A stretch of 64,000 nt of DNA. Source: Linnemannia elongata. Its lineage: Eukaryota; Mortierellomycota; Mortierellomycetes; Mortierellales; Mortierellaceae. Below the pieces are notes generated by a model. The model was not told the origin of the DNA. It worked only from the letters and a program-made list of their open reading frames with translations, and did not search any database. The first letter of the stretch is position 1; every line of letters begins with the position of its first letter. The translations under genes were made by a program, and so were the position numbers. Location of the stretch: positions 248,001-312,000 of the forward strand of contig JAXBDG010000017.1 in the NCBI GenBank assembly GCA_036320915.1, in the 5' to 3' direction. This document shows positions 16,415-41,093 of the stretch, piece by piece.

Positions 16415-18740
16415 TTAAATAAGCTGGAGGTAGTTACTAGGCGCGATACCAATGGTGCCGTCCTGCTTGCGAGCCTGCCACCACTTGCCCTTGTTGTCCA
16501 CAATGTCCAGAACCTCGCCCTTGACGAATCCCAGCTCGTTAGCATCCTCGGGGTTGGCCTCATAAGAGTACAATGCGCGAGCCTTATAGGCGTAGTCCGA
16601 TGATGCTGCCACCACAACCGAGCTCAAGTTGTTGTTGTCTTGGGGCTGAGTCGCATTCATTACGCCGTTAGGAGCCGATGCAACGCCCGTACCCGCAGCA
16701 CCGTGAGCCCTTGGGATCGTGAATCCGTTAATCGTGCGCAATGCCAACGAATCCTCTTCTGCTCCAAAGTAAATCACCCAAAAGATCTAGATCCATCAAG
16801 CAAAAAAGTTGTCAGCCTCGATTCGCTTGTTTGTACGGTACTTGAAAGGTATGTATATACTCCACGACACATAAATACAACTTACGAGAACAAAGGACTG
16901 GATAAGGAGACCGGCGGCGACGGCACTGAGCTTTGGAGCATGAGAGACGTTGATGGTGGCATCGATGCTGATGAAAATGAGGGTGAGGGATCCTCCGATG
17001 AAAGTCAGCAGGGCCAGACGATAGTTGTGAACAGATTGTGTGGCAACTGCCAATGTGGCTCCGAGAATGATAAAGAGGTTATAAAAGATATCGACCCAGA
17101 CCAAGTGGATCCAAGCGCCAATTGTACACGCAGCAATGAACGTGATGATCCATCCGATCTATTGTTCATTGAACACAAGGGTAGACAAAGAATAAAAGAT
17201 TGGTCAGTCAGTTTCCTTGTGCCTGCGCGTGTTTGTTGTTGTTTGGAGCAGAAGTAGTAATAATATGTCATTCCGTTGGACTAGCATATTAGTGTAGGGG
17301 TAACAGAGTAAGAGCAAAGAGAAAGGAATGAACTAAGCATAACGATACATTTATCTTCCTGAAGCGAAAGAAGGGGAGAGGAGGGATTGTCGGGCAAGAG
17401 TAGTAAGGATGAGCAACGCTTGTTCGTTTGTTCGTTCGTTCGCACATTCGTTGTTTTGCCGACAGAAAATGACGACCCCATAGTAATCCGGTATGGTTCC
17501 CTCTTTCTACTCTATTACCGCCGCAGTATCATTCATCACCATGGCTGGACCGTTCACACGCAACTCTCAGTCTCACTGTTCAATGGTCTGTTCGCCATGG
17601 ACCCCTGGGGTTATTGTTTTGCTGTCCTTTAAATGCAATCACCGCCACTCCAATGTTGTTTTCTTCTTGTAAAAAAAGTGGGTGGGTAGGTTGGGGGGTT
17701 CAAAAGTCCAAGCTTTTCTTTCTTTCTTTCCTTCTCCAGGGTCGATATATAGAAAGGGGCGCGGGAAAGGAGGGGAGAGTTATTTTTATGCCCTGGCCTG
17801 GGACATGGGTGGGACAGGAGGAGGAGGAGGAGGGGGGTCAGTCATCCTCCAAGAAAAATGCAAAAAAGGGAACTAAGAAGGGCTGTCTTGTGCTGTTTCC
17901 ATTCGATTGACCTATCCCGTGAAGCTGTGGTGACACTTGGTCCTGGCTGGAGTCATTGTACAATACCCCTAACGACATGAGTGGTCCGGTGTCCCACACC
18001 TAACTCCTTTTCTTCCTGGTTTTTGTTGGATATGCATGTATGCATCCTCCTATTTGTTCATATACGTGTGTCCCTTGACCCTTGTTCTCCTCCTTGCCTC
18101 TTCTTACTCTCAGCCCGTCCGGTCGACCGACCGACTGACTGACTGCTGCCTGCCAGCAGGGTTCAAGGGGATGACTGAGTCGGGCGGAGGTCCCTTTTCG
18201 TCCTTTTTTTCTTTTTTTTTTTTTCCCGCTCCGTTGTCTCTCTTATGCTTTTAGTCCAAGCGGAAGGCCGGTCGATCCACACAAATGTTATTATATTTTT
18301 TTTTGGTTTGTCGTTTTTGCCGTCGTTGGGTTATTGTTGCTTTGTTGCTTTGGATACAAATGGGAATAGAGATGAGGATAGAGAGTAGCGCGATAGGTGA
18401 CAGAAGAGGTCAGCCCATCCTCCTGTGCTGTCCGTCCCTGTTGTCTCACACACAAGGAAGTAGCCGTTTGGTGACTGTGTTGGATAACATGTGATGCGCC
18501 ATGTTGTCTGTCTGTTTTCCTCTTCCTTGTTGTTGGCTGTTGTACAAAGTGTGTGTGTGTGTGTGTGTGTGGGGTGATAAAAAGAAAGAAGTGCGAAAGG
18601 TGAAGAGAAGGGGAGAGTAGAACGAGGAGTGTTGAAGTGTTGCTGAAGGGTGTTGTGTGTGGTGCTCTTACCAGGAAGAGAACGAGGGAGCAGAGGAAGA
18701 ATGGCTGCGCCAGGACGAGGTTGATGTCGATGAAGGCCAT
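16415..18740 (-). CDS. SHO1: Sho1-type osmosensor: four TM helices plus SH3
   Basis: Exons complement(18672-18740), complement(16886-17158) and complement(16415-16786) join at phase 0 to 237 residues. The first about 115 residues form four membrane segments: [57 protein letters not shown] and [19 protein letters not shown] short Ser/Asn linker follows. The end is a complete SH3 domain from about residue 178 ([19 protein letters not shown], then KGKWWQARK and [11 protein letters not shown], all hallmark blocks). This order defines Sho1, the plasma-membrane sensor whose SH3 binds the Pbs2 MAPKK in the HOG pathway. Intron 1 is very long (1,513 nt), intron 2 is 99 nt. The protein is somewhat shorter than yeast Sho1 (about 370) because the linker is short. 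Exon 1 is the least certain piece, but it carries ATG, TM1 start, correct phase and a GTAAGA donor. Confidence 0.88.
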
Positions 18741-21162: not shown

Positions 21163-22829
21163 TCAAACCTCCGAAAGTATCCTCTCAAACTGCTCAATCA
21201 TGAACGGCTGCTGCTCCTGATGATCACCTCCCAACAACTCCACCTTCTCAACTCCACCACTTTCCAACTCCAACTTGTCCACCGTAGTAGCACCAGAACT
21301 AGTTGAAGAATCCGTCGACAGACAATCTGCAATCTGCTTGACGGCGTTCACCATGTACTGCAATGGCGTCGAAATCGTTCCGAAATACGGCACAAGCGCC
21401 AGTGTCGTCAATGCCGCATTCAGCGCCGTGTAACTCGCATAGATCACAGCACTGGTACCCGATGTCAACGCCTGGAAGAGTCCATCCATCAACGGATTCA
21501 GTGTCGACGCTATCAAGAATCCGGCCACAGGGATCCCTGCGATTTGAACCAGCAGCGCGTTGGCGATCATGCGAACAATCTGGATGAGGCCAGTACAGTT
21601 GCTTCCACCGCCACCGCATTCGGTCGGGATGTCGAGGAGACCGACAAGGCGGAGGAGGTAGTCACGGATCGGGTTTGTTTGGTTGGCGGGGGAGACGATG
21701 TTGACCATTTGGAGGATGCCGTATAAAAGTGCGACGGTTCCGCCGATGGCGGTGGCGATGCCGGTCTGGAGATCGATCACGAGGGACTTGAGCGCTGCCA
21801 GGAGAGGGGTAATGATCAATGGGCCCACAACGGGGAAGGAGCCAATGTCGTCTTGAATGAACTGGATAAAGTCGCCCAGGACGCCTGACAGTCGGTCGCG
21901 GTACATTGTGCACTTGTCCGCGAACAGCGCAATATTTACTCCTAAGTCGCGATGGAAATAAAATGAATGATGAGTTTTCTAGTATATAGCGTCGCTCGTC
22001 GGCAAACAACACGGATGATACAGACTAACCATCGGGGTTTCTTACCTTGGCATTTGAGGGCCTCGCCAAAGGCTTCGTACATATAGAGGAGCGAGTTCGA
22101 GAAATCACCATACTTGACAGTATTGCCTGCCGTCTTTCCAATCAACGCACCAAACGTCTGTCCAGTCGCGCGAAGCGTTGATGTATCGCCGGTGGTAAGC
22201 GTCTTCTCCAACGCAGTTGTAATAGCCGCCAACTGGCTCTTCATGTCCGCCGTGACAGGCGCCGGAGTCTGTGTCGCCTTTATGGTCACAGCGGCAGCTA
22301 CCCTCCTGTACATTGTCAAGATTCCCGTACAATCAGCCGTATTACTATTCGCACAGCTGACAACCATCTGAATCAAGGTCTGCAAATCGGGTATGGATGA
22401 GTTGAGCGCCACGCTAGTCACAAAGTTGAGCGTCCGGAAGTCGACCTGGGCAGTCGTGAGGAGTCGGAGAGCACTGGTAACAGTGACACCAGCAGGGGCG
22501 GCAATCATAGTCAAGGACGTGAGATCATCCTTGGAGGCCGCCAGATTTGCAGAGACTTCGTTCAGGGTGGCGATCAATGGTGCGTAGACGACCTGTGTGA
22601 GGTTGTTGGTAAGGAGAAGAGCTGTCATCGCTGCAGTGACTGTTGAAATCTGGGCCGTTGCTGCATTGACGGCGGTTGCGCACTCCTTCTTGCAGGAAGC
22701 CTGTGGGAGGCTGGCATAGCAGCCTGCCACACAGACGGATGCTAGTACCGGAGTTAAACCGACTGCTGTACAGTTGTACAAGGTACCGCTGGACAGACCA
22801 CAGTTCGTTGGGAACGCCGATCCGCATGT
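21163..22829 (-). other. C-terminal hydrophobic domain of the giant protein (exons 23-24)
   Basis: After a last partial cysteine unit (TCGSAFPTNCG), the sequence changes to about 490 residues poor in Cys and rich in Ala, Leu, Thr, Ile and Val. Predicted helices include VTAAMTALLLTNNLTQVV, ALLYGILQMVNIV and AGIPVAGFLIASTL. Several stretches look amphipathic or weakly membrane-like. The end is polar (HQEQQPFMIEQFERILSEV). The exon 23/24 junction is phase 1 across a Gly codon. I cannot assign a fold. Self-association or surface binding are possibilities only. Confidence 0.7.
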
Positions 22830-25800
22830 CTATCATGCAGGCGAATATGGATGAAAAGTGATTAGTTTTGGATACCTTATAGGCGGTGAATGTAGGTATG
22901 AAAACTGACATAAAGAAGGGGCGGCAAAACTTACAGCGGCGGTGCTTCGGCACTTGCAAGGATCCTGACAGACAGCGTTAAGACCCGACAAGACACAGGC
23001 TTGAGCTCCACAATCTGCCTTCAACACGGGTGCTTGGCCGCTCACACAGGTGTACAACGCACTCGGGATAAGATTACACGACGGGGCAAACGAGGCACCG
23101 CATCTGACATTAGTGTCCGTACATGTACAGCCTGCAGCTTGACAGGTGCCAATTGCACAACCATTCGGACAGGCGGTAACGGTTCCTGCGGGGCAGGTCA
23201 CCACAGAATTGGCGGGCTTGGCACAATCTGCCGGGAATTGGTCGGTGCATACTGTTCCTGTACCGACACAATCGCAGACCTTGTTGGCCACGCAGACATC
23301 AACTCCTCCAGGGACCATCTGACAGATCTCGGATGATTGGCAGTCTGATTTCTTGACGGGGAGGGCGCGATTGGTGGCGCAAGTGTAGAGCGAGTTGGGA
23401 AGGTAGCCACAGTTGGCGGGGAAGGACTTTCCGCAGGTATCGCCTACTCGTCCGCATGCACAGGGGTCGAACGCACAAACGTCTGGTGCACTTGGGATCA
23501 CGTTACAGTAGCTCGTGCATGTATCCGAGACGACGGGGACGTCGCCTTGGTTGCCGCAAGACATTAGTGTCTTGTTGTCGTACTTGCAGTCTGCAGAGAA
23601 CGAGGACGCACAGATCTAGAGAAGGTAATGGAAAAGAGATACATTGTTATGTAAAATAGTCAACCCCGGTCATTCGACATGGCCGCACATTCTCCAAAAC
23701 AAAGTTGCAGCATCAAGAAGAACTTACCGGTACGTTGGCTACTTGACAAGCGCACTTATCAACACAGAAATCATCTCCAGCCGCCATGAACTCAGCCTTG
23801 CCAGAGTTGATGTTGGAAGAACACGTGCCATCTCCACAATCCTTTTTGACCGCCGGCACTAGGCCCGTGGTACAACTATAAAGTGTGTTCATGGCGTATC
23901 CACACGAGTTCGGGAACTGTGACCCACAATGGAGCCCGCTATCCTTGCAGATGCAATCCAATGACGTGCATGTCGGTCCAGCAGCGGCTGTAGTACAAGT
24001 TGAGCCCGAGTTGCATTCAAGCTTCTTCACAGGAGCGGCACTCGGACCTGCACATGAGTAGACAACGGTGGGGTTGTAACTGCAGTTTGCAGGAAGCGAA
24101 CCGCCACAAATGTCGCCGGCGACCGTGCATGCACACGGGTCAAAGTTGCACTCACTGGTGGTGGGTGTCGTTGTACATCCCTTGGTGCAGACGTTCATCA
24201 ACACGGGCATGTCACCGACATTTTCGCAGCTCATCAAGGCCGAGGCGTTGTAGTTGCAAACCGCATCGAATGTCGAACCACAGACCTGTTGTATCACGAC
24301 AGTTGCACTTGCGTTAGTCGTCCGGCTTTGATCTTTACCCCTCAGCTCAGTTCATAGCAAAGTGGCCGTAAAAAAAATGCCTTATAATACCCTCTGAGCG
24401 CACTTACCAGAACTTCGCTTTCCTTGCATGCACACTCGTCAATACAGAACTCATCAGCTGCCGTCGCCTTGAAATCCGTGGGCTTGTCAGCCATAACAAC
24501 AGTGTCATTCATATCGGCACCAGCAGTCGACGCATCCGAGACAACGTTACCCGAACAAACACCAGGCGAGCAATCCTTCACGACTATCGGCAAGGCGCCC
24601 GTAGTACAGCTGTAAAGTGTGTTACTAACCATATTACAGGCACCAAAGAACGCCGACCCACAGTGCTTGTTATCATCCTTGCAGATACAATCTGGGAGGG
24701 TGCACTTTGGACCGGCGGGTTGGACGAAACAGATGGCGTTGCCGAGACAGCCGACCTTCTTGACAGGCAGGGCCTTGAGGGCTGAACAGCTGTAGATGGC
24801 CGTGTTTTTGAGGTTACATTTTGCTGGGAACGCCGTGCCGCAGACGTCGCCGATTGTCGTGCAGGCACAGGGATCGAAGGTACAGACATCTGGTCCTGCT
24901 TGGACTGTGCAGGATAGAGTGCAGGTTTCCTTGACTGTTGGAACGTCTCCCACATTGGCACAATTCATCAGCGCCTTGGTGTTGTATGCACAGGTAGAGC
25001 TGAATACTGAGCCGCAGACCTATTTCCGCACAACGAATGGAGCAATGAATTAATAACAATGCTTGCAATGACCTTGGGCTAAAAACAAGAAAAATGCATG
25101 TCGAGTCCAAATGACTTACCGCAACGCCGGCCTCTTTACAAGCACACTGGTCAATACAGATATCATTCGCCATCGCACTAAAGTCCACAGAGGTTCCCTT
25201 GACAACATTCGCAGAACAAGTGCCCGTTCCACAATCCTTGACAAGCACCGGAAGCGTGCCATTGGTACACTTATACAGGCTGTTGGACACCAACGAACAT
25301 GACGATGCAAAAGTCGAGCCACATCTGTCAGCATTCTCCTTACAGATACAATCAGGTGGGGTGCAGACCGACCCTGTTGCAGTAACGAGACAGACATTAC
25401 TGGCTGGGCAGGCAATCTTCTTGACGGGCAAGGCCTTGTTGCCAGAACAAGTGTACTGAGAATTCTTCTCGTAGTTGCAGGTGTCAGGGAAAGCAGAGCC
25501 ACAGGTGTCGCCGGACTTGGTACAGGCACATGGATCAAGTGCGCAAGCGTCCGATCCGATCTTGACCTCGCAGGAAGCAGTGCAGTTCTCTTGGATTGTG
25601 GGTACGTTTCCGAGATTGCCGCAGGTAAGAAGGGCTTTGCTGTCGTAGTTGCAAGACGCATCGAAAGTAGAGGCGCATACCTATTTCCAGTCAGGGAAAA
25701 CGAGGGAGGGCATCGTCAAAACTAACATCGAGCCATGTCGTCCATCTTGAAGTTAGTAAGAGCAGCCTCGACAACTTACCGAAACATTAGCCTCCTTGCA

Positions 25801-28800
25801 TGCACACTTGTCAACACAGATATCCACAGCCTCCGGTCCAATCTTGCTTCCCGAATCCAAGACGATGTTGGCCGAACAAATGCCAGTCAGAGCGCAATCC
25901 TGGGCAACACTCGCGATAGATCCATCATGGCACTGGTAAAGCGTGTCGCTCTTCAGTCCACACTCTTTGAAAAAGGTCGATCCACAATGTGTCGCATCGT
26001 CCTCGCAGATACAGGCTGTAGACGCACAAGTTGGACCTTCTGGTGTCTTGAAACAGTTATAGTCGTCCTGGCAAGCAGACTTCCTGACGGGCAAGGCTTT
26101 GATTGCAGAACAGGTGTAAATGGACTCGGATTCGTAAGAACAGCCAAAGGGCAGGTTGCTACCACACATGTCGCCAATCGTGGTACATGCACAAGGATCA
26201 ACTGTGCAGACATCAGGACCGAGTTGCTTGGTGCAAGAGAGAGTACAAGCCTCCTTGACCGTTGGCACATCTCCCGCATTACCACAGTCCATAAGTGACT
26301 TGTTGCCATAGTTACAGCTCGGGTCGAACACCGAAGCACACACCTATTAAGAAGGAATATGGCGTTAGCGAACGATTGCCCTGTATCGAGTGTTCAGCCT
26401 TTGTTTTGGAAGTTAAGATATGACAATGTACTTACAGGAACATTGGCTTCTTTACACGCGCACTGGTCGATACACTTGTCCTCGGCCATGGTAGCGAACT
26501 CTGCCGTACCTGCAACCACATTGGCTGAGCATGTTCCAGTGCCGCAGTCCTTGAGAACTGTTGGAAGCGTTTCGCTGGTGCACTTATACAGCGTATTGCT
26601 TTCCAGTTTGCATGACGCTGCAAATGTCGAGCCGCAGTGGCTTGCATCATCTTTACAGATACACTCGGGAGGAGTACAGACTGATCCTGTTGCATTGACG
26701 AGACAGACCTGGGAGCCTGGACAGGCGGCTTTCTTGACGGGTAAGGCCTTGTTGGCTGAGCATGAGTACTGAGAGTTCTTCTCGTAGCTGCAGGTATCAG
26801 GGAAGGCAGAGCCACAGGTGTCGCCAGCCTTGGAACAAGCACAAACGTCGAGTGCGCATTCATCTGGATCGGGAGTAGTGTCACACTGCAACGTGCATGT
26901 CTCCTTGACCTTGGGTACATCCGCAATGCTACCGCATTCCAAAAGCGCCTTCTTGTCGTAAGGGCACGACGCGTCAAACTCGGAAGCGCAGATCTACAAC
27001 ATCAGATTAATAATCATTGACGATCAGCATCCTACCATTCGATATTTTAAAATCGCCAATCTTGAATATTCACGAATGGTAGGAGTACTTACAATAGCTC
27101 CGGGTTCCTTGCATGCGCATAGAGGGATGCAGATATCCACACCATTAGCACCAGAACTCGCGGCGGTGGTGTTGGTGGAGCAAATTCCTGGCAGACAATT
27201 CTTGGCGATGACAGGAGTGGCAGTAGGCACGCAAGTGTAGAGAGTACCGGCCTGGAGGTGACATCCGTTAAAAAAAAGTCGATCCACAGTGAGTCTCGTA
27301 GTTCTTACAATTACAGTCAGAGAGCTTACAGATCCCCACGGGAGTGTTCAGGCAGATTCCATTCTCCCAATCTGCACCGGTACCTGCACCTGTTACCACA
27401 CCTACACCTTCTGGACAGGTCATTTTTTCCCGGGCAACATTCGATCTCAAATACATTTTAAACCGTGCTTACCTCGTAGCCACAACCGGCGGGAAGATTA
27501 CTGCCGCAGAAATTTCCGGCTTTGTTGCAGGCGCAAGGGTCGAAGGCACACATGTCTGCTCCAGGTTGCTTGGTACACGAGAGCGTGCACGTTTCCCTGA
27601 CAGTCGGAACATCTCCAGCTTGGCCACAATCCATGAGTTGCTTGGGATTGTAGTTGCAGGTAGAATCGAATGCAGATGCGCAGACCTACAAGGGGGTAAT
27701 AGCGGCACTCGTGTGTTCAGTGAAGCGTAACAAACATGCTACCGCATAATAGAAAAGGGTTACGGGAAGTAACATGCTCGATTTACTTACCGGAACACCA
27801 GCCTCCTTGCAGGCACATTGATCGAGACACTTGTCATCAGCAGTCGCTCTGAAGGCAGCAGTTCCCTTGACAACGTTTGCGGAACAAGTTCCAGTTCCAC
27901 AATCCTTGATGAGAGAAGGAAATCCACCAGTCTTGCACTGGTACAACGAGTTCTTCTGTAGCATGCAGCCATCAATGAATGTCGAACCGCAGTGAGCTTC
28001 ATCATCCTTGCAGATGCAATCTGGTGGTGTACAGGTCGGTCCTGTCGGGATCTCGAGGCAGACTTTGCCACTCTCGCAGCCAGATTTCTTTACAGGCAGT
28101 GCCTTGATTGCGGAGCAAGTGTAGACTGAGTCCTTCTCATATCCGCAGTTGGGTGGTAGAGTGCCTCCGCAAGCATCTCCAACCTTGGTGCATGCACATG
28201 GATCGAATGTACACACATCAGGGCCAGGTTGCTTGGTACAGGATAAAGTACATGCGTCCTTGACTGTAGGGACGTCTCCAACGTTTCCACAAGCCATCAG
28301 AGACTTGTTGCCATAGTTACAGATCGGATCGAAAGAGCTTGCGCAAATCTGATAAATAACAAATGAAACGCGTTAGTATCCAAACTCATTCGTTGCACAA
28401 GCAACATGCAAAATAATAACTATAGCCTTCACTCACCGGCACGTTAGCTTCTTTGCATGCACATTGATCAATACAAGTATCATCGGCCATGGCTTTGAAC
28501 ACCGCCAAACCAGCCACGACGTTGGCGGAGCAAGTGCCCGGATTGCAGTCCTTTGCAGAGCTCGGGAGTGCTCCATTAGCGCACTTGTACAAAGTATTAG
28601 AGACAAGCTTGCAGGCTGGGATAAAAGTCGATCCACAATGCGAGCCATCGTCCTTGCAGACACAGTCAGGTGGAGTACATGTTGGGCCGGACGAGGTCTC
28701 GAGACAGATATTTCCGCTGGGGCAGGAGTCCTTCTTTGTCGGCAGCATCTTATTTCCGCCACAGGTGTAGACCGATGTCTTTTCGTATCCGCAAGTTGGG

Positions 28801-31800
28801 TCAAGGGAGTTTCCGCAGACATCTCCAGCCTTGGTGCAAGCACATGGGTCGAAGGAGCAAACGTCCGGTCCTGGTTGGGCCGTGCACGACTTGGTACACA
28901 TCTCCTGGACTGTTGGGACGTCTCCCACTTTGGCACATGTAAACAAGGCTTTGTTGTTGTAGTTGCACGAAGCGCTGAATGTATTGGCGCAAACCTATAG
29001 AAAGAGAATGAAATCAAACCATTAATTAAAAGTATACGGTCACCGGATTAAGTCACAAGAAGAATATATGCGGTTTAAATAACTTACTGGAACGCCCGCT
29101 ACTTTGCATGCGCATTGATCGACACAGATATCGCTCGCAGCCATGGCTGTAAAGACAGCCGCGCCTACTACAATATTAGCCGAACAAACACCGGGAGCAC
29201 AATCTCGGACAGGAACAGGCAAAGCGTTCAAGGTGCACTTGTACAACGTCTCCGACTTGAGGGAACAGATAACAGGGTATCGCGATCCACAGTGTGAGTC
29301 GTTGTCCTTGCAGATGCAATCCGGCGAAGTACAGACAGGATCAAGAGTACTCGTCTTGACGCAAACGTTGCCGGTGGGGCAGGTATCCTTTTTGACAGGA
29401 AGTTTGCGTTCTCCGGTGCAGGAGTATCGTGCGTTCATATCGTATCCGCAACTGTCTGGGAAAGTGTTGCCGCAGGTATCTCCGGCCTTGGTGCAAGCGC
29501 ATGGATCGAGGGCGCAGACATCAGGTCCAGGTTGCTTGGTGCACGAGAGGGTACAGGTCTCTGTGACCGTGGGGACATCGCCAGCCTGTCCGCAGGCCAT
29601 GAGATCCTTTTCCTTATAGTTGCAGACTGAGTCGAAAGCAGAAGCACAGATCTAGAAACGACATCATATTTCACAGAGGAAAAAAAGCCCCCCGTTAGAA
29701 CATTTTCATTCCTCTCTGCCATGAACGACGCTATTACCGTACTGAAAGCCGCTTACCGGAACATTGGCTTCTTTACAAGCGCATTGGTCAAGGCACTTAT
29801 CATCAGCGGTGGCTCTGAACTCAGAAGTACCCTTCACCACGTTCGCAGAACAGGTGCCAGCTCCACAATCCTTGGCTAAAGCGGGAAGACCACCGTTCGT
29901 ACACTTGTAGAGCGAGTTCTTCTGCAAGTTGCAAGCGTCGATAAAGGTCGAACCACAGTGAGAACCGTCGTCCTTACAGATGCAGTCTGGAGGCGTGCAT
30001 GTCGGTCCTGCCGGGGTCTCAAGGCAGGCTTTGCCACTCTCGCAGGCTGACTTCTTTACAGGTAGAGCCTTGATTGCGGAACAAGTGTAGACTGAGTCCT
30101 TCTCGTAGCCACAGTTGGATGGTAGAGTGCTTCCGCAAGCATCTCCAACTTTTGTGCATGCACATGGATCGGATTTACACTCATCAGGGCCAGGCTGCTC
30201 GGTGCAGGATAGAGTACAAGTCTCCTTGACTGTCGGGATATCTCCCGTATTGGCGCAGTCCATCAGCGCCTTGGAGTCGTAGTGACAGATAGGGTCGAAC
30301 GTTGAAGCACAAATCTATCGCAAAGAAAAGTTAGGTGAGTTAATACCTCTACCATATAACGAGCAATTGTTCAGCCAGAAACGCTCGATTGTAAAACATA
30401 CCGGAACACCAGCCTCCTTGCATGCACACTGATCGATGCAAGTGTCGTCTGCGGCAGCGCTGAATTCTAACGTGCTCTTGATCAAATTAGCCGAGCAAGT
30501 TCCGGTACCACAATCCTTCTCCAAATTCGGAGGCTGTCCGGTCGTACACTTGTAGAGCGTATTGTTCTGAAGGTTACAGGCATCAACAAAAGTAGAGCCG
30601 CAATGAACGGCGTCGTCCTTGCAGATGCAGTCTGGTGGGGTGCAAGTTGGGCCAGAAGGTGTCGTGAAACAAACAGTGCCTGATTTGCATGGAGCTTTCT
30701 CCGTTGGTAGCGCCTTGTTTCCGCTACACGATAGCACTGTCTCGGGTTCGTAACCGCAAGTATCGGGGAATGTCTGGCTACAGATATCTCCGGACTTGGT
30801 GCAGGCGCACGGGTCAAACGCGCAAATGTCGGGTCCTGGCTGGACTGTACATGACGCTGTACAGCTCTCCTTGACAGTCGGTACATCTCCGGCCATAGTG
30901 CACTCCATGAGGTCCTTGGCCTTGTAGTTGCAGAGAGGATCGAAAGCGGAAGCGCAAACCTAGGAAATGTTGTATTGTAATTAGAAAGTTAATTAAGCAT
31001 ACATAGTAAGCAATTGAATAACAGTTCCCATAGGCAGAGGTACTTACAACGACGTTGGCTTCTATGCAGGCGCAGTGATCGATACAAATGTCCTCGGCGG
31101 TCGCCCTGAAAACAGCGGTTGCTTGGACAACATTTGCGGAACAAGTACCAGCTCCACAATCCTTGACGAGGGTTGCGAGACTACCCGTTTTGCACTTGTA
31201 GAGACTGTTCTTCTCGAGCTTGCAAGAGTCAAGGAATGTAGACCCGCAGTGTGAACCATCGTCCTTACAAATACAGTCCTCAGGCGTGCACGTCGGTCCA
31301 GTAGGGGTGACCAGACACACTTGAGGAGATGGACAGGTTTCTTTCTTGGTGGGCAACTTGCGCGGACTTTCGCAGGTGTACACCGAATCCTTCTCGTACG
31401 GGCATGTCGAAGGGAAGGTGTTGCTGCAAGTATCACCGGCAGCGGTGCAAGCGCAAGGGTCAAGGGCGCAGTCGTCTGGTCCATCTTTCTTGTCGCACGA
31501 GAGTGTACAGTTCTCTTTGACTGTGGGTACATCAGCCATATTTGTACAGTCCATCAGAGCCTTACTGTCGTACGCGCAAATAGAATCGAAAGCTCCTCCG
31601 CATACCTAAAGATCCAACAAAGGTTTGAGATTAAACACAGGGACTCTTAATGTCGTTGTCAAATACCAGCATGCAAAAACACCATAATCAAACTTACTGG
31701 AACTCCGGCTTCTTTGCAGGCGCATTGGTCGATACAGATGTCATCCGCTGTTGCTCTGAAATCTGCCTTAAACTTGGCCACATTCGTCGAGCAAGTTCCA

Positions 31801-34800
31801 GAGCCACAGTCCTTGACCGGAGTCGGAAGCTGTCCATTGGTGCACTTGTACAAAGTGTTATCCTTCAGATTACAGAGAGCAACAAACGTAGAACCACAAT
31901 GGGAGCCGTCGTCCTTGCAAATACAGTCAGGAGGCGTACAAGTCGGTCCTGATGGAGTCTCAAGACAAGCGGTCGCCTTGGCACAGGCATCCTTCTTTTC
32001 GGGTAGAGCCTTGTCTCCAGCGCACGAATAAACCGTGTCCTTGTCCAGTGGGCAGGAGTCTGGGAAAGATTTGCTACAGACGTCGCCAGCCTTGGTGCAG
32101 GCACAGGGATCGAGCGTACAAGCATCTGGGCCAGATTGTGGGGTGCAAGACAGAGTGCAGTTCTCCTTGACAGTGGGAACATCTCCTGTGTTGCCGCAGG
32201 CCAACAGAGGCTTGATGCCGTAACTGCAAGACGAGTCGAACGTGGAAGCACACACCTAAGTACATAATAATGAAGATTATCAATACTATTGATAGTAACT
32301 TTGAGCAGTAAAGCGCGAAGGCACAAAAATATAGGACACTTACAGGAACGTTGGCTTCTTTGCACGCGCATTGGTCAATGCACTTGTCATCCGCCAGGGC
32401 TTTAAATGCTGCTGTGCCTGCAACCACGCTGGCTGAGCATGTTCCAGTGCCGCAGTCCTTGAGAACTGTTGGGAGCGTTCCGCTGGTGCACTTGTACAGC
32501 ATGTTACTTTCCAGTTTGCATGAATCTGCAAATGTCGAGCCGCAGTGGTTTGCATCATCTTTGCAGATACACTCGGGAGGAGTACAGGCCGACCCTGTTG
32601 CAGAAACGAGACAGACATTGGCGGTTGGGCAATGGGCCTTCTTGATGGGCAAGACCTTGTTGCCGGGACAAGTATACTGAGCATCCTTCTCGTATTTACA
32701 ATTTTCTGGGAAGGCAGAGCCACAGGTGTCGCCAGCCCTACTGCAGGCACATGGATCAAACGCGCAAACATCTGGTCCAGGCTGGACGGTACATAATGCA
32801 GTGCAGCTCTCCTTGATAGTGGGTACATCGCCGACGTTCTTGCAGTCCATGAGTTCGTTGGCCTTGTAGGTACAAGACGAGTCAAAGACAGATCCACAAA
32901 CCTAAACAAAACGCGAAATTTTGGTAAGCCAAACGCATTTTAGAAGACTTTAAAATGTACAACGCAACGAAAAGAACAATACACATAAAGATACTTACAG
33001 GGACGTTGGCTTCTTTGCAAGCACACTGGTCAATACAGCTATCACTTGCTTCGGCCCTGAAAACCGCCAGACTGGCAACAATGTTTGCGGAGCAAATTCC
33101 AGGAGCACAATCATGGTCCGCTGTAGGAAGAGCTCCTTTGACGCACTTGTAGAGAGTCTCCTTCTTCAGGTTACATGCTTCCACAAAAGTCGAGCCGCAG
33201 TGAGTGTCGTCATCCTTGCAAAGACAATCCTCTGGGGTGCAGACTGGTCCTGCAGGCGACTTGAGACACGTCTCCTTGGCGGCGCAGGCAGCCCTCTTCT
33301 CTGGGAGCACGGCAGCAGCCTTGCAGGAGTAGATACTCTGGGCCTCATAAGTGCAAGTGTTCGGGAAACTGCTTCCACAGACGTCTCCAGCGGCTGAACA
33401 AGCACATGGATCAAACTTGCAGACATCTGGAGCGTTCTCCTTTGTCTCGCAAGCCAGGGTACAGTTCTCTTGCAAAGTTGGAATGTCACCGAGCTTGCTG
33501 CAGCTCATCAGCGCCTTGCTATCGAGTCCACAGATCGGAGCAAATGTCGATGCGCATACCTACCAATGCACAATTTGATGTTCAGTCAGCTCACTTTTGT
33601 CCAACCATTGACAACAAGTCATCATTATTCAAAATTTACTTTCAGAACCCGGAACAATGACTTACCGTTGTGCTGGTTTCTTTGCACTCACACTCCTTGA
33701 TGCAAAAGTCCGAGACCGAATGCGTCGTGTCTGGTGGAAGAACATTCGCAGAGCATGTTCCCTTGTCACAACTTCCCACAGGAGGGAGTGGAGCCTTGCC
33801 GGCAACGCAGACGTAAACGGCGTTCTTCTCGAGGCCGCATTTGTCAGGGAAGGTGGAGCCACAGCGTGAGTTGTCGTTCTTGCAGACACATTTGGGTAGG
33901 ATGCACATGTTGTCAACACAAATGTTCAAGTCCAGACAGTCCCTGTCCTTCTGCGGTTTGCCATCGGAGCCGCACTTGTACACTCCTTCGGGAAGGTGAC
34001 AGGCAGGAGAGAAGTCCTTGGAACACTTTGTATCGGTTCCTGTGCAGGTGCACAGCGACTTGCACTTGGCACCATTCGACTCCTCCGTACAGACCTCGTC
34101 CATTGTGCACTTTGTACTCTTGACTGGCTTCTGTCCATCGTCTGAGCAGGTATATATGCTGCTGGCGTCGACAGGCTCTCCAAGAACAGATTCGCATGAA
34201 AGGTCAAGGCTTGATCCACAGATCGAGGCTGTACTATTGCAGAAGCAGCGGGAGGGAGGTTCGACGATGGGTCCACAGCTGTCGGGACCCATGCTGGTCA
34301 TGCAGTGATCATTCATGCATTTCTCCGCGAGCACTGGCGCGATTCCGATCGACGTGCAGCTGTAAAGGGAGCCGGCATCTAGTTTACAGGCATCAGAAAA
34401 TGTACTTCCGCACATCTATATAAAAAAAGTAATATGAAGGAACCGATCAATAAACAAGACGTAGCAGTCGCCAAAAACTAATTGTGTGAGAACTCGACTG
34501 CTTACCATATCAACGCTGGGGCACACGCAAGGATCGATACATTCGATCGTAGGAGGTGACGAGTGGTGCACGGGGACATCGCAGTATCCGGGAGAGCAAT
34601 CCTTATCCAAGACAGGACTATCTCCGGCGTGGCAAGTGTACAAGGACGAACCATTGAGCTTGCACGATTGAGGGAACTTTCGCCCACAGACCTGTCCATC
34701 CTCAGTGCACTTGCAGTCGGTTGAAGTACAAGTGGCTCCACTAACAACAGATACGCACGACTGATCGCCTTCGCAATCCTTGTCCAAGACGAGACGACCG

Positions 34801-37800
34801 CTCGGGGTGCACTTGTAAACGGCGTTCTTCTTGAGACCACAGCCGTCTGGGAACTGGTTCGAGCACACCGACAAGTTTCCGGTACAGGTGCACTTTGATC
34901 CACAGCATGAAGCCCCTTCAGCGTTTTCTTGACAGGTCGTGCCAGGGACGCAAAGTTTCTGCAAGACTGGAGTAGAACCAACGCCCGCTGTGCAGTCGTA
35001 GATCGATTGGTTCGAGAAGTTGCATCCCGACTGCATAGATCGTCCACAGAGTGTTCCAGCTTTCTGACAGGTGCAGTCGGGCTTATTGCATTCGTCGGAG
35101 GAGTCGGGTTCATTCTGGGCAGCGCAACCCTCAGGACATAACTCGCCGGCGATTGGTGTTGCGCCTGATGAAGGACAGCTGTAGATTCTGTCTGCATCGA
35201 GCTTGCACTCCTCTGGGAATGAGTTGCCGCATACCGCCTTCTTGTCCTTGCACACACATTGATCAGACATGCAGACATCATCGGCGCCCTCCTTGACAAG
35301 ACAACGGCCAGACGCACACTTCTCGTCAAACCTTGGAGTTGAACCCTTGCCAAATCCACACTTAAACAACGCTTCCTTGTCGAAATTGCAATCCTTCGGG
35401 AAGGCTGAGCCACAAACTCTAGTAACATCTCGACAGGTGCAGTCCACGACTTCGTGGGGCACTGTCTTGCAGCGATCCGCCTCGGCGGGGTAGTTCTTGA
35501 GACACCCGAATCCACAGTTCTCGAGCTTGGTGGGTAGACTTCCTCGTCTGCTGCAGATGTAGAGATGTTCGGGGTCAAAGTGGCATTCATCTGAGAATGT
35601 CGAGCCACAAATATGTCTGCGGTCCGTGCACCTGCAGGGATCTCTAGGTCCACAATGACAGTTTCCGCTTTCTTCCTCTGCACACCCGTTCTCGACGCAC
35701 CTCTCGGATGGGATTGGGTCGCTGCCGATACCGCCTGGGCAGGAGAAAAGTTGGTCCGGGTTATAGGCGCAAGTCTCGGGGAACTTTCGTCCACAGACAT
35801 CGCCGGGTCCAGTGCACTTGCAGTCGTTGCAGTCGTCGTCTCCGGGGTTGACTACACAAGAGTCGGTGCCTGGGCAGAGTTTGGCTTTAACGGGCTCCTG
35901 GTTTGGCCCATTGCACCTGTAGACTTCGTTCCTGTCATATCCACATCGTTCTGGGAAACTCTGTCCGCAAACCTATAAAGACAGCCAAGGCGCAAAAAGG
36001 AACAATTTGATATCTCAATACTCAACAGCTAAAACCACCAACAAAAAAAAATCAAAAATCAATACCCAAGGCGTACTTACCATAGCGAGTTCCTTAGTAC
36101 AATGGCAGGCGGACATGTCCATATAATCGATATCCGACAGAGCGTCATCAAAGGCCGTGTAATTGGAAACTTGTGCACGAACCCCTCCTCCTCCTCCTCT
36201 TGTTGGTACTGCCTCCGCTTGCAATTCTTCAGGCTCAGCTTCCCGGACAATCTTATAGGAGGCACAGCGATCAGGTGCAAAGTCCTTGATAAAGATCGGA
36301 GACTCGCCTTTGGTGCAATTGTACAGCGCTGTTCCCTTGAAGCCGCAGGAAAGGTGGAATCTCTCGCCGCAAGTAAAACCATCCACCTCACACTTGCAGT
36401 CGTTAGAAACGCACTGAGAACCGTCGGACTCGGTGACACAGACTTGCTTGGAAGTACACTTTTGGACCAGCTTGGGGATTCCTGAGGCTGAGCACCTGTA
36501 GACACTGTTGGGACGAAGGCCACAGCGTTCCTTGAAGGCTCTCGCACAGAGTTCCGTGACTCCTGTACAGTCACATGTCGTTCCACCACAGGCGGCTCCA
36601 ATGGGCTCTGGTTGGGAGATGCAAATGGTTCCTGGTTGACAAATCTGCTGAATCTCTGGCAAGGTTCCTGGTCCGCCCGGACAGTGGTACACGAGGTTGG
36701 GGTCGATATCCATGACTTTCCTGCAGAACGTCGAGGCGAGAACCTTGCCGCAGACAGGTGAAGAAGATACAGGACAGGTGCAGATCTCACTTGGTGGAGG
36801 GTCGACATGGGCGCCTGGTCCGTCACAAGTGTCAGGTCCAGCATTGGCGACACACTTTCCTTCTCCGCACAAGGTGGTTGGGATAGGCGTGAATCCAGGT
36901 CCGGTACATTTGTAGAGGATGTTCTTGTTGAGGTTGCAGGTCGATGGAAAAGTCGATCCACAGACGACATCGTTTCGTTCACAGGAACAAGGATCAACGC
37001 AGCGATCGCCAGTTAAAGGCCCGACGGCTGAACATCTTAGAGGACCACAGTCGTGCTTGGCAACAGGGGCTTGTCCTTTGGCACAGGTGTAGACCGTAGA
37101 GCCTTTGAGCTTGCAACTCAGCGGGAAAGCATCGCCACAGACTTCACCCTCCTCGGAGCAGATGCAGTTATTACTGACACAGGCAATGGTATCGTTATAA
37201 TTGACACAGGTCGAAGAAGGGTCGCATTTGCGGACACTCGTCGGTAGAAGCACGGTCAACGAGCACCTGTAGATCGTGTTGGGTTCCAGGCCACAAGTCT
37301 CTCGAACGTTGTCCGAGCAGATCTCGCCATTGATGGTACAGTTGCAGGACGTGGCACTACAGGCAGCACCGGCAGGGAACGGTCTCTTCTTACAAAGCGT
37401 TCCTGGATGACAGGCCGAGAGGACCTCGGGAGCGAGCTGTTTGGCGTCTCGACAGATGTAGATCGAATTGGCCTCGGCCCTGCAGGAGGCTGGGAGATCG
37501 CTACCGCAGATATTGCCGACACCGACGGTCTCACAAGAGCATACATTGTGTTCGTTGCCATCACCGTCATGACTACAAACATCAGCACTGGCCTGAATAG
37601 TACACCCCTTAGCGCACTTCTCGCCTGCTATGGGGTTAGCAGCAGCACCAGTGCATTTGTAAATAGTGCTCGCATCAAGCTTACAGGTTGGTGGGAATGA
37701 CGCTCCACACACCTACATTGTCAACGTAAATAACAGCTAATTAATACAAACACCTCATTGAACAAGCAACAGCAAGACAGTGTGTAAGAAAACCAATCTT

Positions 37801-40312
37801 TTCAACCTACATCTCCTTGAACGGTACATGCACATGAATCAACACAGAGGGTGGCAGGAGGAGTAGTCAGACAAGTTGTTCCTGCACGGCAATCGGTATG
37901 AACAATGGGAGCCTGGCCCTTCTTGCAATTGAACACCTTTGTCGACGACAGGCCGCACGACAATGGGAATGCGCCTCCACAGACCGAACCGTCTTCAGTA
38001 CACTTGCAGCCATTCTCGGAGGTCCCAGAGGCAGCACAAACAGCACGATTCAATTGTCCAGGGACACAAGCCAGGGAGGAAGAACAGGTGCTCACGAGCT
38101 CGGGAACACCAGAGGCAGAACACTTGTACACGCTATTGGGGATGAGCTTGCAGCTGAGCGGGAATTGGTCTGAGCACACCGCGACATTACCAGTGATGGC
38201 GGTGGTGCAGTTGCAGTTCGAGAAACCGCATTGAGGCTCTAGGGGGCGAGGGCGGCTTTGGGAGATAGTTCCAGGTGGGCACTGCTGAAGGACCACAGGA
38301 GGATCATTGTCACTACCGTCGCCCTGGCTGCCATCACCATCCTTGGGACAATAATAAATAACCGTCGGATCCGCATGACACTCTGGTGCCAAATCAGCAC
38401 CCGCCAAAATACCTCCACCCACGCTCTTGCAAGAACACGTCAATGGCTTTCCTTTGTCGCCGTCAGTATGACCAGGGTTCGAATCGTCGCCACCGTTGAT
38501 TATGCATGGGGAGCTCGTGGGGGTTTTTGATTTGGGTGCGATACATTTCTCGCCGGGGATGGGTGGAGATCCGGGGGTGGTGCAGGTGTAGAGGGTGTTT
38601 GCTTCGAGCTTGCAGTAGTTCGGGAATGTGCCACCAGATACCTATTGAAGTATCAAGATTGAAAAAAAATGAGGTTTCAGGTTTCTTGTGTGGCACAAGA
38701 TAATTAGCGATATCATTTCAGTCAAACAAGCAAAAACGAAAGAGATAGGGACTTACGGTTCCGGGAGAGGTGCATCGACAACTGTCAACACAGTCATTAT
38801 TCACCAACCCCTCAAAAACAACATTACCCGCAGTCATCGCCGTCGCCGATCCTGCTGTAGACCCAGCAGAAGAACACCGCCCTGACGCACAATTCTGAAT
38901 CAATACCGGTGCCTCGCCTTTGACACACCTGTACAGCGCAGTCGTCGGGATCCGACACCTCAATGGGAAGATCTCACCACACGCAGTACCGTCCACAGGG
39001 CATGTACAGTCGTTTCTGACACAGAGGGTTCCACCGGAGATGGAGACACATGTCTGATCGCTCGCGCATTCCTTGACCATGTCTGCTTTACCGCCATTGT
39101 TGAGTGAGCACTTGTAGGCGGTGTTCTTGGAGATCCCAGGGCAGTTGTCGGGGAATTGGTCAGCACAGAGTTGGTTCGAGCCTGTGCAGTCACACGTCGA
39201 GGCTCCACAAATGGGATCGGCACCATTAGAACGGGCTCGACATTGAGTACCGGGTTGGCAGATTTGGAGGAGCTCGAATTTGGAACCGGGTCCGTGCGGG
39301 CAAAAGTAGATTGCGTTGGGCTCGATGTTGCAGCGGGCGGGGATTTGGGATCCGCAGATGGGGATGATGGTGGTGGCTGATGTGCCTGGAGCACACTTGC
39401 AGGGGTCTTGTGGATCTGTCCCGTTTCCTCCACTATTATCCCCCCTAGATCCACCACAGACTTTGGCATCAATCAACCGGACCAAAGGCTTGGCTCCAAC
39501 GGCCTGGCAGTCGTAAAGCGTGGTCCTTCGGAACCGACATCCAAACATTCGGCTTCCACAGAAGTGTCCCTTGGCAATACAGAGATCCTTGTAGGGGTGG
39601 TGAGGCCGTTTTTGTGGCTGCTGGTTGCCAGGATTTTGCTCGTTATGGGGATGGTTACGACCGTCATTGTTCTTCGCCTCCAATCGACCATCAACGGCGC
39701 TCTCGTCTAAATCCTCATAATCGTCACCATCATCATCCTCTTCGCCGTCGTCGTCGTCGTCGTCGTCACTATCGTCCTCCCCATCAACCTCCTTGACATG
39801 GTCAACGGCTTCATACTCTAGGCTCTCGTCAATACTGGCTTCAGAAACAAGAGGCCGAACCAGGACACCTTGAGCCTCATTCTTGCGGGAGGGAAGGAGA
39901 GCATTAGAACAAGGAGAGCTCATAAAGACATAGTTTTGTTTGATGCGTTTGCGTGTGTTGAGCGCGTACAGCTGTCCGCCAAAGTCCTCGTCGTCTCCTT
40001 TGTTGTTGTTGTTGTCAGGGTTTGGGAAGGGCGATTCCTCGAGATGGATGTGGGATGGTAGGGATGTTGAGCGACGGCGACATCTGACCTTGTCGATGAT
40101 TTTGCCGTCGCAGACGAGATTCAGCTGTCTCGTCACTGTTCATCGTGAAGTTCATTGTGTGTTTATGATTCCAAGAGAAAATAAGGTGCAAGTTAAAACA
40201 AGCGCGTGTGAAAAAAAGAAAAAAAAAATGCGAAACAAATAAAGTGAAACTGATAAAACCAAAAAGAGACGCGTCAAAGTGAGAAACTCAATCAGACGCG
40301 GCAGAGACATCC

Positions 40313-40343
<31 letters not shown>

Positions 40344-41093
40344 AATCGTACCTAAATTTCTGGCGCGAGGTGACTTCTTACCACCTTGCCCGTGTCCGGC
40401 GCCGTGGTGCCTAAGTTTCTCGTGGTGCTTATGTCCATGCTTACGGACCTTATACTCTCCATGACGGTGCACGTAATCACCTTCCTTCTTATCATCGCGT
40501 CCGCCGGGACGTTGCCCATTGCGATCTCGATGAACAACACCCTTCTTCTTGCCATAACGTCCACGCAAATGACCGCGACCGTGGCCACGGTGGTGGCGGT
40601 GCTTGGATTTTGAGTTCCGATGAGTATTGAGAGTACCCGGTCTCTTCTTCATCCCCTTCTTGCTCTCAGCAGTGGATTCCCCTGTCATCGCCTCCCTATT
40701 GGCCCCCACTACTTCTCCCTCCAAATCATCCTTGTCCTCGACGCTCTGCTCAGGCCCTGTTGCTGGTATTGGTGCTGCAGGTTGCAGGACGATAGACCCT
40801 GCCGGCTCCGAATCAATCCAGACACCCCTTACTCCCACTCCTTCTTCCACTCCTTCCTCTTCAACTGCAGATCCGTCAAATGGGCCATCCTTGCCAATCA
40901 AGAACGAGTCCTGACCCTGAACATTGTTGATATGGTTGTTGCCTTGACCCACGCTAGAATCGGCATGAACGAACCCAATTGTTGCTGTTGTTGACGAGAT
41001 AACACAAAGACATGCTACTATGCTCACAATACCCACTACAACGGCTGTCGTCGTCGTCGTTGTCATCGTCGATCGCAGTGTGAACACCCTCAT
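21163..41093 (-). CDS. Giant secreted cysteine-repeat protein, about 5,800 residues
   Basis: Exons in gene order, all complement: 40352-41093, 38757-40135, 37811-38641, 36081-37712, 34506-35972, 33666-34415, 32999-33559, 32344-32901, 31698-32255, 31048-31605, 30402-30959, 29757-30314, 29088-29651, 28437-28994, 27791-28348, 27473-27685 with 27093-27363 (damaged), 26436-26993, 25780-26343, 25120-25680, 24408-25019, 23728-24285, 22935-23615, 22046-22829, 21163-21941. Internal junctions are phase 0 except the first and last (phase 1). Exon 1 has a signal peptide (about residues 1-44) and a basic His/Lys/Arg/Gly-rich region. Exon 2 starts with an acidic run (EDDSDDDDDDDGEEDDD). Then come about 78 copies of an 8-Cys unit: xCGxxFxxxC, (L/V)YxC, LP, C, C, C, then CxC. 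Exons 23-24 encode a hydrophobic Ala/Leu/Thr-rich domain with few Cys. No GPI signal or terminal TM segment is seen (the protein ends in ERILSEV), so it is probably secreted. I do not recognise the family. That this is one gene rather than several is inferred from unbroken phase and the lack of any internal signal peptide or promoter-sized gap. Confidence 0.8.
23728..33559 (-). repeat. Tandem exon array: 15 three-unit cysteine modules
   Basis: Exons 7-21 of the giant gene each encode one module of about 186 residues with about 24 Cys. Nine are exactly 558 nt (exons 8-12, 14, 15, 17, 21); the others are 561, 564 or 612 nt. Exon starts are spaced 645-734 bp apart, mostly 645-665, and introns are 87-122 nt. 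Every exon opens with [V/I]-C (GTN or ATN, then TGY) and closes with a VP-like pair just before a GTAAGT-like donor. All are phase 0 at both ends. Within each exon three unit types follow in order. Type A has GDVPTVKE, then DPCAC. Type B has YTC, KALPVKK, then DCICKDD. Type C has HCGSTF, LYKC, KDCG-GTCSANVV, then DQCACKEA. The A-B and B-C borders have no introns. Confidence 0.9.
27093..27685 (-). other. Damaged module 16 of the giant gene
   Basis: The module begins normally (27473-27685, type A unit to GCGYE). Then a GTAAGC donor with an immediate in-frame TAA interrupts the type B unit, exactly where the other modules continue with KDSVYTC. The B unit resumes in frame near ENGICL at about 27363 if a 109-nt intron with a GAG acceptor is assumed, which would drop about 24 residues including two Cys. 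The type C unit then reads CGSTFF and stops. Eight A on the + strand (27270-27277) put a TAA in frame, and one base fewer would continue into NGCHLQAG. So there is one internal lesion plus one 1-base frameshift. The frameshift may be a homopolymer sequencing error, while the B-unit disruption cannot be. Confidence 0.7.
34506..40135 (-). repeat. N-terminal cysteine-unit region with 4- and 8-unit exons
   Basis: Exons 2 and 3 hold four units each, exons 4 and 5 eight each, and exon 6 (33666-34415, just outside this span) four. These units are more diverged than those of the 3-unit array. They read VCG-FP-C or ICG-FP-C, with Tyr-x-Cys and often CxCTG or CKCT linkers. The all-multiples-of-four layout contrasts with the three-unit exons downstream. 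Exon 22 (22935-23615), after the array, again has four. Confidence 0.75.

Follow-up and report, generated by a model that had tools for sequence, protein, structure and literature searches.

A cysteine-unit array gene of Linnemannia elongata and its paralogues with common ends and differing middles

Short, cysteine-braced modules in tandem are found in peritrophin-A (CBM14) arrays, including those of peritrophins and EHEP, and Avr4 carries a single domain of this type. The EB module is an eight-cysteine module, and fibrillar stalk-and-head surface proteins are a known class with fixed ends and a repetitive stalk of varying length. Here we describe a 20-kb gene of the fungus Linnemannia elongata that encodes a tandem array of 77 cysteine-rich units. 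It lies in a window (the whole stretch of DNA analysed) of 64,000 nucleotides from assembly GCA_036320915.1, contig JAXBDG010000017.1, positions 248,001 to 312,000 of the forward strand.

The array resembles those of peritrophin-A in its short, cysteine-braced tandem modules, in a C-x(12-13)-C pair and in a weak fold resemblance, but it differs in having eight cysteines per unit, another spacing, and 34 to 77 units per gene across the paralogues. Eight cysteines are also the likeness to the EB module, but in the genome search the EB family has no matches at the unit loci. As in stalk-and-head proteins, the ends are fixed and the middle is variable and repetitive, consisting of arrays of 34 to 77 units or of threonine-rich spacers, with one paralogue (C7) in which the helical end was not found. 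Unlike that class, the unit is outside Pfam, the host is a fungus, and the middle is swapped between a putative cysteine rod and a threonine-rich stretch. The threonine-rich spacers, present in two paralogues (C28 and C3), are reminiscent of mucin-like glycoproteins, whereas the window gene has units instead.

Seven genes with largely common ends

The window gene is on the minus strand, with its ATG at 41093 and its stop codon ending at 21163, exactly the coordinates given by an earlier, sequence-only reading of the window. That reading had proposed one gene with unbroken splice phase and a signal-peptide exon, and a product of about 5,800 residues with about 600 cysteines in about 78 eight-cysteine units. 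The splice model agrees on each count: 25 exons form a single open frame with a coding sequence of 17,301 nucleotides, exon 1 has a signal-type start (judged by eye), and the predicted product of roughly 600 kDa has 5,766 residues and 622 cysteines. A hidden Markov model (HMM) of the unit finds 77 units, 70 of which have exactly eight cysteines.

The genome (51.1 Mb in 32 contigs) was searched with profiles, and only the best candidates were scored. Loci are named by contig, C9 being the window gene, and the paralogue gene models are drafts. Unit arrays occur at five loci: C9 (77 units), C31 (48), C32 (43, leaving out one plus-strand hit with an expectation value (E) of 0.0054 that was judged a chance match), C2 (34) and C7 (52, or 51 with less flanking DNA). 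A second unit query, taken from C7, matches the same five loci and none besides at E 0.001.

The ends extend beyond the arrays. An N-terminal query from C31 reaches six loci, including C28 (E 3.8e-4) and, weakly, C9 (0.005) and C3 (0.028). A query with the cap unit reaches seven (C28, C3, C7, C32, C9, C2 and C31), with E from 6.6e-36 (self) to 0.004, the weakest being C2 and C31 (0.003 and 0.004). By eye, the N-terminal motifs align across all seven loci, and all five array genes open with a segment of signal type and a tract rich in His/Lys. In C28 and C3, the N-terminal region, His-rich tracts and cap are present and are followed by threonine-rich spacers in place of arrays; the spacer of C28 has 134 threonines in 213 residues. 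Helical domains with four cysteines stand beside these spacers; C28 has one such domain and C3 has four.

The helical C-terminus of the window gene is matched in C31, C32 and C2, and in these four genes it comprises two tandem halves, H1 and H2 (hhalign probability 94, or 87 under other settings). A profile of the C3/C28 helical domains matches H2 at probability 86 (1.3 for the reversed control, at most 1.9 for 20 column shuffles). The sequence-only reading had described a unique C-terminal domain; the domain is present, but it is common to three unit-array paralogues and, more distantly, to the two mucin-like ones. The seven genes are a family with a common N-terminal end, a mostly common other end and a cysteine-rich or threonine-rich middle.

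Because the array occupies an exchangeable middle position between common ends, it is best read as a stalk. We put at about one in two the probability that this is a single gene for a stalk protein that is secreted and probably sits at the cell surface or is associated with the wall, and in which the array would be a long disulfide-braced spacer between fixed ends. Secretion is probable from the signal-type start, and the stalk role, the surface location and the disulfides are proposed from the sequence. One fixed end would be the N-terminal region (the His/Lys/Arg-rich tract, the LVCDG..IID and PCS parts and the cap unit) and the other the two tandem four-cysteine helical domains, with the 77 units, mostly of eight cysteines, as the braced spacer. 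The N-terminal region may lie in or at the wall, such that the array would keep the helical domains at a distance from it, and the helical end may have an adhesive or coating role. Walls of Mucoromycotina are rich in N-acetylglucosamine/glucosamine and glucuronic acid, according to one report (PMC7928374), and a wall of such composition could suit a basic N-terminal anchor. Length would have grown by tandem duplication of phase-0 exons, each holding only complete units, and the module that was amplified would differ from one paralogue to another.

A broader proposal, to which we give somewhat less than an even chance, is that the family is a stalk system of this lineage's own. Its eight-cysteine unit, outside Pfam, would have multiplied separately in every paralogue, in blocks of 3, 4 or 8 units or, in C7, as single-unit exons. 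It would be swappable with threonine-rich spacers of mucin-like type, lying between an N-terminal end that is rich in His and the system's own four-cysteine helical head, whose reach would be set by exon copy number. If the protein is extracellular, its 622 cysteines could form up to about 311 disulfides; folding and secreting such a protein would burden the cell to an unusual degree, and the product would be a long disulfide rod of natural origin. Because the ends are kept while the kind of middle swaps, whether the middle is only a spacer is directly testable.

Gene model, exon map and array

The splice model was built by hand. Its first pass rewarded cysteine, and the exon 5 acceptor was set by hand to 35972. 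A second pass, with codon-usage scoring and without the cysteine bonus, gives nearly the same chain (5,371 letters including the stop), with another exon 5 acceptor and with exons 2 and 4 split. All 24 modelled introns have GT-AG borders, and all are phase 0 except introns 1 and 24, which are phase 1. Of the 22 phase-0 introns, 21 fall at unit borders and the remaining one (intron 16) sits within a unit; the intron is followed by one residue and then a cysteine in 20 cases, and by VSGG, with cysteine 1 lost, in another. The join of exons 1 and 2 was accepted mainly because of the paralogues: in the models of C31, C32 and C3, too, a phase-1 intron precedes the homologous N-terminal region.

The gene finder scores the true strand at 1608 and the opposite strand at 3, and it reaches at most 11 on 20 Markov-2 sequences; because its codon table comes from training on the window gene, this control shows strand and frame and is not an independent prediction. 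The unit HMM, itself derived from these same proteins, places all 77 units on the minus strand inside the gene, and it finds none outside the gene in the window, none in the reversed window and none in one shuffled gene region. Features are listed below in window coordinates, with exon 1 taken from the splice model and the paralogue starts; cysteines of a unit are numbered 1 to 8.

40352..41093, minus: exon 1, hydrophobic N-terminus of signal type plus a tract rich in His/Lys/Arg; intron 1 is phase 1
38757..40135, minus: exon 2, the conserved N-terminal region with its LVCDGKIID..C and PCS parts, an acidic stretch, the cap unit and a further three units
37811..38641, minus: exon 3, units 5-8, of which 5 and 6 are without cysteine 1 and one other cysteine
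36081..37712, minus: exon 4, units 9-16; cysteines 4 and 6 absent from unit 16
34506..35972, minus: exon 5, units 17-24
33666..34415, minus: exon 6, units 25-28, closing the part with a four-unit period
27791..33559, minus: exons 7-15, a run of nine exons with three units each (A-B-C), 558-564 nucleotides long, phase 0, with 24 cysteines apiece; the introns between them measure 87-105 nucleotides
27473..27685, minus: exon 16, unit A and the beginning of a second unit
27252..27472, minus: intron 16, 221 nucleotides, decayed unit B/C sequence
27093..27251, minus: exon 17, remainder of the second unit
23728..26993, minus: exons 18-22, five three-unit exons of 558-612 nucleotides, phase 0, 24 cysteines each
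22935..23615, minus: exon 23, units 73-76
22046..22829, minus: exon 24, last unit (seven cysteines, cysteine 8 absent) and C-terminal helical half H1; intron 24 is phase 1
21163..21941, minus: exon 25, C-terminal helical half H2 and stop codon
21074..21079, minus: AATAAA, possible poly(A) signal shortly past the stop codon (from sequence)

The 77 units, found with a 58-position HMM built iteratively, span residues 440 to 5302 with gaps never above 25 residues, and the median unit spacing over all loci is C-x7-C-x9-C-x12-C-x4-C-x8-C-x4-C-x-C. The array has two parts, with a period of four in units 1-28 and of three in units 29-77; the period is four in C31, and in C32 it is strongest at eight. 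When the first 16 units are assigned to their best-matching C31 unit types, 15 fall in order (the exception is unit 9), and the order is lost from unit 17. Exons hold 3, 4 or 8 units in C9 and about 4, 8 or more in C31, a large part of the C32 array lies in one modelled 5.3-kb exon, and C7 has mostly single-unit exons.

The fourteen A-B-C exons have on average 66% of aligned bases in common. Their introns have 65% in common versus 60% for shuffled introns, and because this likeness is near the shuffled level, the module duplications are taken as old. Two module pairs are under purifying selection, with ratios of nonsynonymous to synonymous substitution of about 0.11 (exons 12/15) and about 0.26 (exons 8/18). 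One correction to the sequence-only reading concerns exons 16/17, which are a two-unit module, with a decayed unit in the 221-nucleotide intron between them. Intron 16 alone among the 24 contains a unit-like peptide at E 0.01, the best such peptide having 28 residues at 57% identity (E 1.4e-9 within this small set of introns). This intron is likely coding sequence turned intron, from part of a three-unit exon.

Identity of the unit and competing explanations

The sequence-only reading could match the unit to no named family and called for an HMM search and a structure prediction of one A-B-C module. Searched against Pfam, 79 single units and 96 windows gave no family above any cut-off seen, in scans where HMMER filters drop most single-unit matches above about E 0.1. 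An AlphaFold model of three units is confident and contains strands (predicted local distance difference test score (pLDDT) 87.5), and Foldseek finds weak fold matches only, some of them to peritrophin-A proteins. Neither library has a row at E 0.001 or better, and the top PDB rows belong to disulfide-rich proteins of other kinds: factor XII (0.54), NEL, follistatin, megalin and Notch EGF. The helical end likewise matches no Pfam family above cut-off among the pieces with printed cut-offs, the nearest row being pAdhesive_17 for the C32 C-terminus (24.4 bits versus a cut-off of 27). Two new domain families may therefore be represented here, with the unit as one candidate and the helical domain as the other.

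Known families were compared individually. The EB module (PF01683) has six genome places, none above cut-off and none in the arrays, with weak rows in 8 of 79 single units (best E 0.019). CBM19 (PF03427) has three places above cut-off, none in the arrays, and weak rows in one of 79 single units (E 0.15) and one of 96 windows (E 0.38). CBM14 (PF01607) has, among the best candidates scored, two places, both on C23 and none in the arrays, and no row among the 79 single units. The C23 places (L043:871-1311 and L044:1048-1503) encode two small, secreted-type CBM14 proteins, above cut-off at E 2.7e-9 and 1.2e-8 and about 5 kb apart.

It is nonetheless conceivable, if unlikely, that the units are diverged peritrophin-A-like modules and that the protein binds chitin/chitosan or polyphenols multivalently, as a coat or cross-linker of the fungal wall itself or of some foreign surface. 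The weak fold resemblance fits this idea, but it stays above E 0.001 and the top PDB rows are not peritrophins, the CBM14 and CBM19 models match elsewhere in the genome and not the arrays, and hhalign of the unit against a six-sequence CBM14 set gives a probability of 0.3, similar to the reversed control. The six-cysteine spacing of peritrophin-A (CX15CX5CX9CX12CX5-9C) is approached by the units only in the distance from cysteine 4 to cysteine 6. Tryptophan is absent from the units, the product having one in 5,766 residues, and a putative pair of cysteines 1 and 5, if right, clashes with the peritrophin bonds (1-3, 2-6 and 4-5). Furthermore, chitin binding is not universal among peritrophin-A domains, some of which lack it (PMC10619976).

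The cysteine content of about 11% and the His-rich tracts at the N-terminal ends of the paralogues would also suit an extracellular metal store or scavenger, in which both bind metals. We regard this as improbable: the tracts are kept in two paralogues without arrays, and the conserved cysteine spacing, the confident strand-containing model and the joint loss of cysteines 4 and 6 favour disulfides over metal thiolates. This joint loss, seen in 8 of 251 units, is the only clear co-loss signal for the bond pattern, and it suggests a disulfide between cysteines 4 and 6.

That several genes within the 20 kb were misjoined is very improbable, even with a model predicted from genomic sequence, a weak intron 1 donor (GTACGA) and an exon 1 dropped by the codon-scored pass, given the unbroken phase chain, the controls, the single N-terminal and single helical regions at opposite ends (as in C31, C32 and C2) and the large share of the C32 array in one 5.3-kb exon.

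The stalk reading has its own difficulties. The gene, its product and the product's location are predictions from genomic sequence, and the codon-scored chain begins at 39923, without exon 1. For C28 no signal segment was identified, and in C7 the helical domain was neither matched nor seen by eye in 3.6 kb from the last modelled exon. The C3/C28 helical profile matches H1 weakly (probability 16; reversed control 0.6). The AlphaFold model of exon 25 is of low confidence (pLDDT 57, from four sequences), so its fold matches are read as "helical" and no further. Units with a ligand of their own could make "spacer" too narrow a term. Of the roles first suggested for the protein, a disulfide-linked rod serving as surface fibre, adhesin or matrix component best fits paralogues whose middles are either threonine-rich or arrays, and it is still an inference; no evidence was found for a binder of other organisms.

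Surroundings of the window gene and its paralogues

Ten frames outside the gene were compared with Pfam; two gave no rows and eight gave rows, to ATP synthase alpha (two frames), the actin family (two), SH3, MARVEL (below cut-off), F-box-like and protein kinase. The genes compared around the window gene are ordinary eukaryotic ones. Frames at 16418-17158 on the minus strand combine membrane-like segments (by eye) with an SH3 domain, and we take them to resemble a fungal SHO1-type osmosensor.

Upstream of the C28 gene is a stretch of N (L050, first about 4 kb). The C32 contig end (L049) carries a tandem TTTTTTAGGG-type telomere-like repeat, and the C32 paralogue is about 21 kb away. Downstream of the C7 paralogue (C7 1497087-1499550, L032), frames resembling short, secreted, cysteine-containing proteins of the CMSVCEAQNKWCSS type are apparently repeated.
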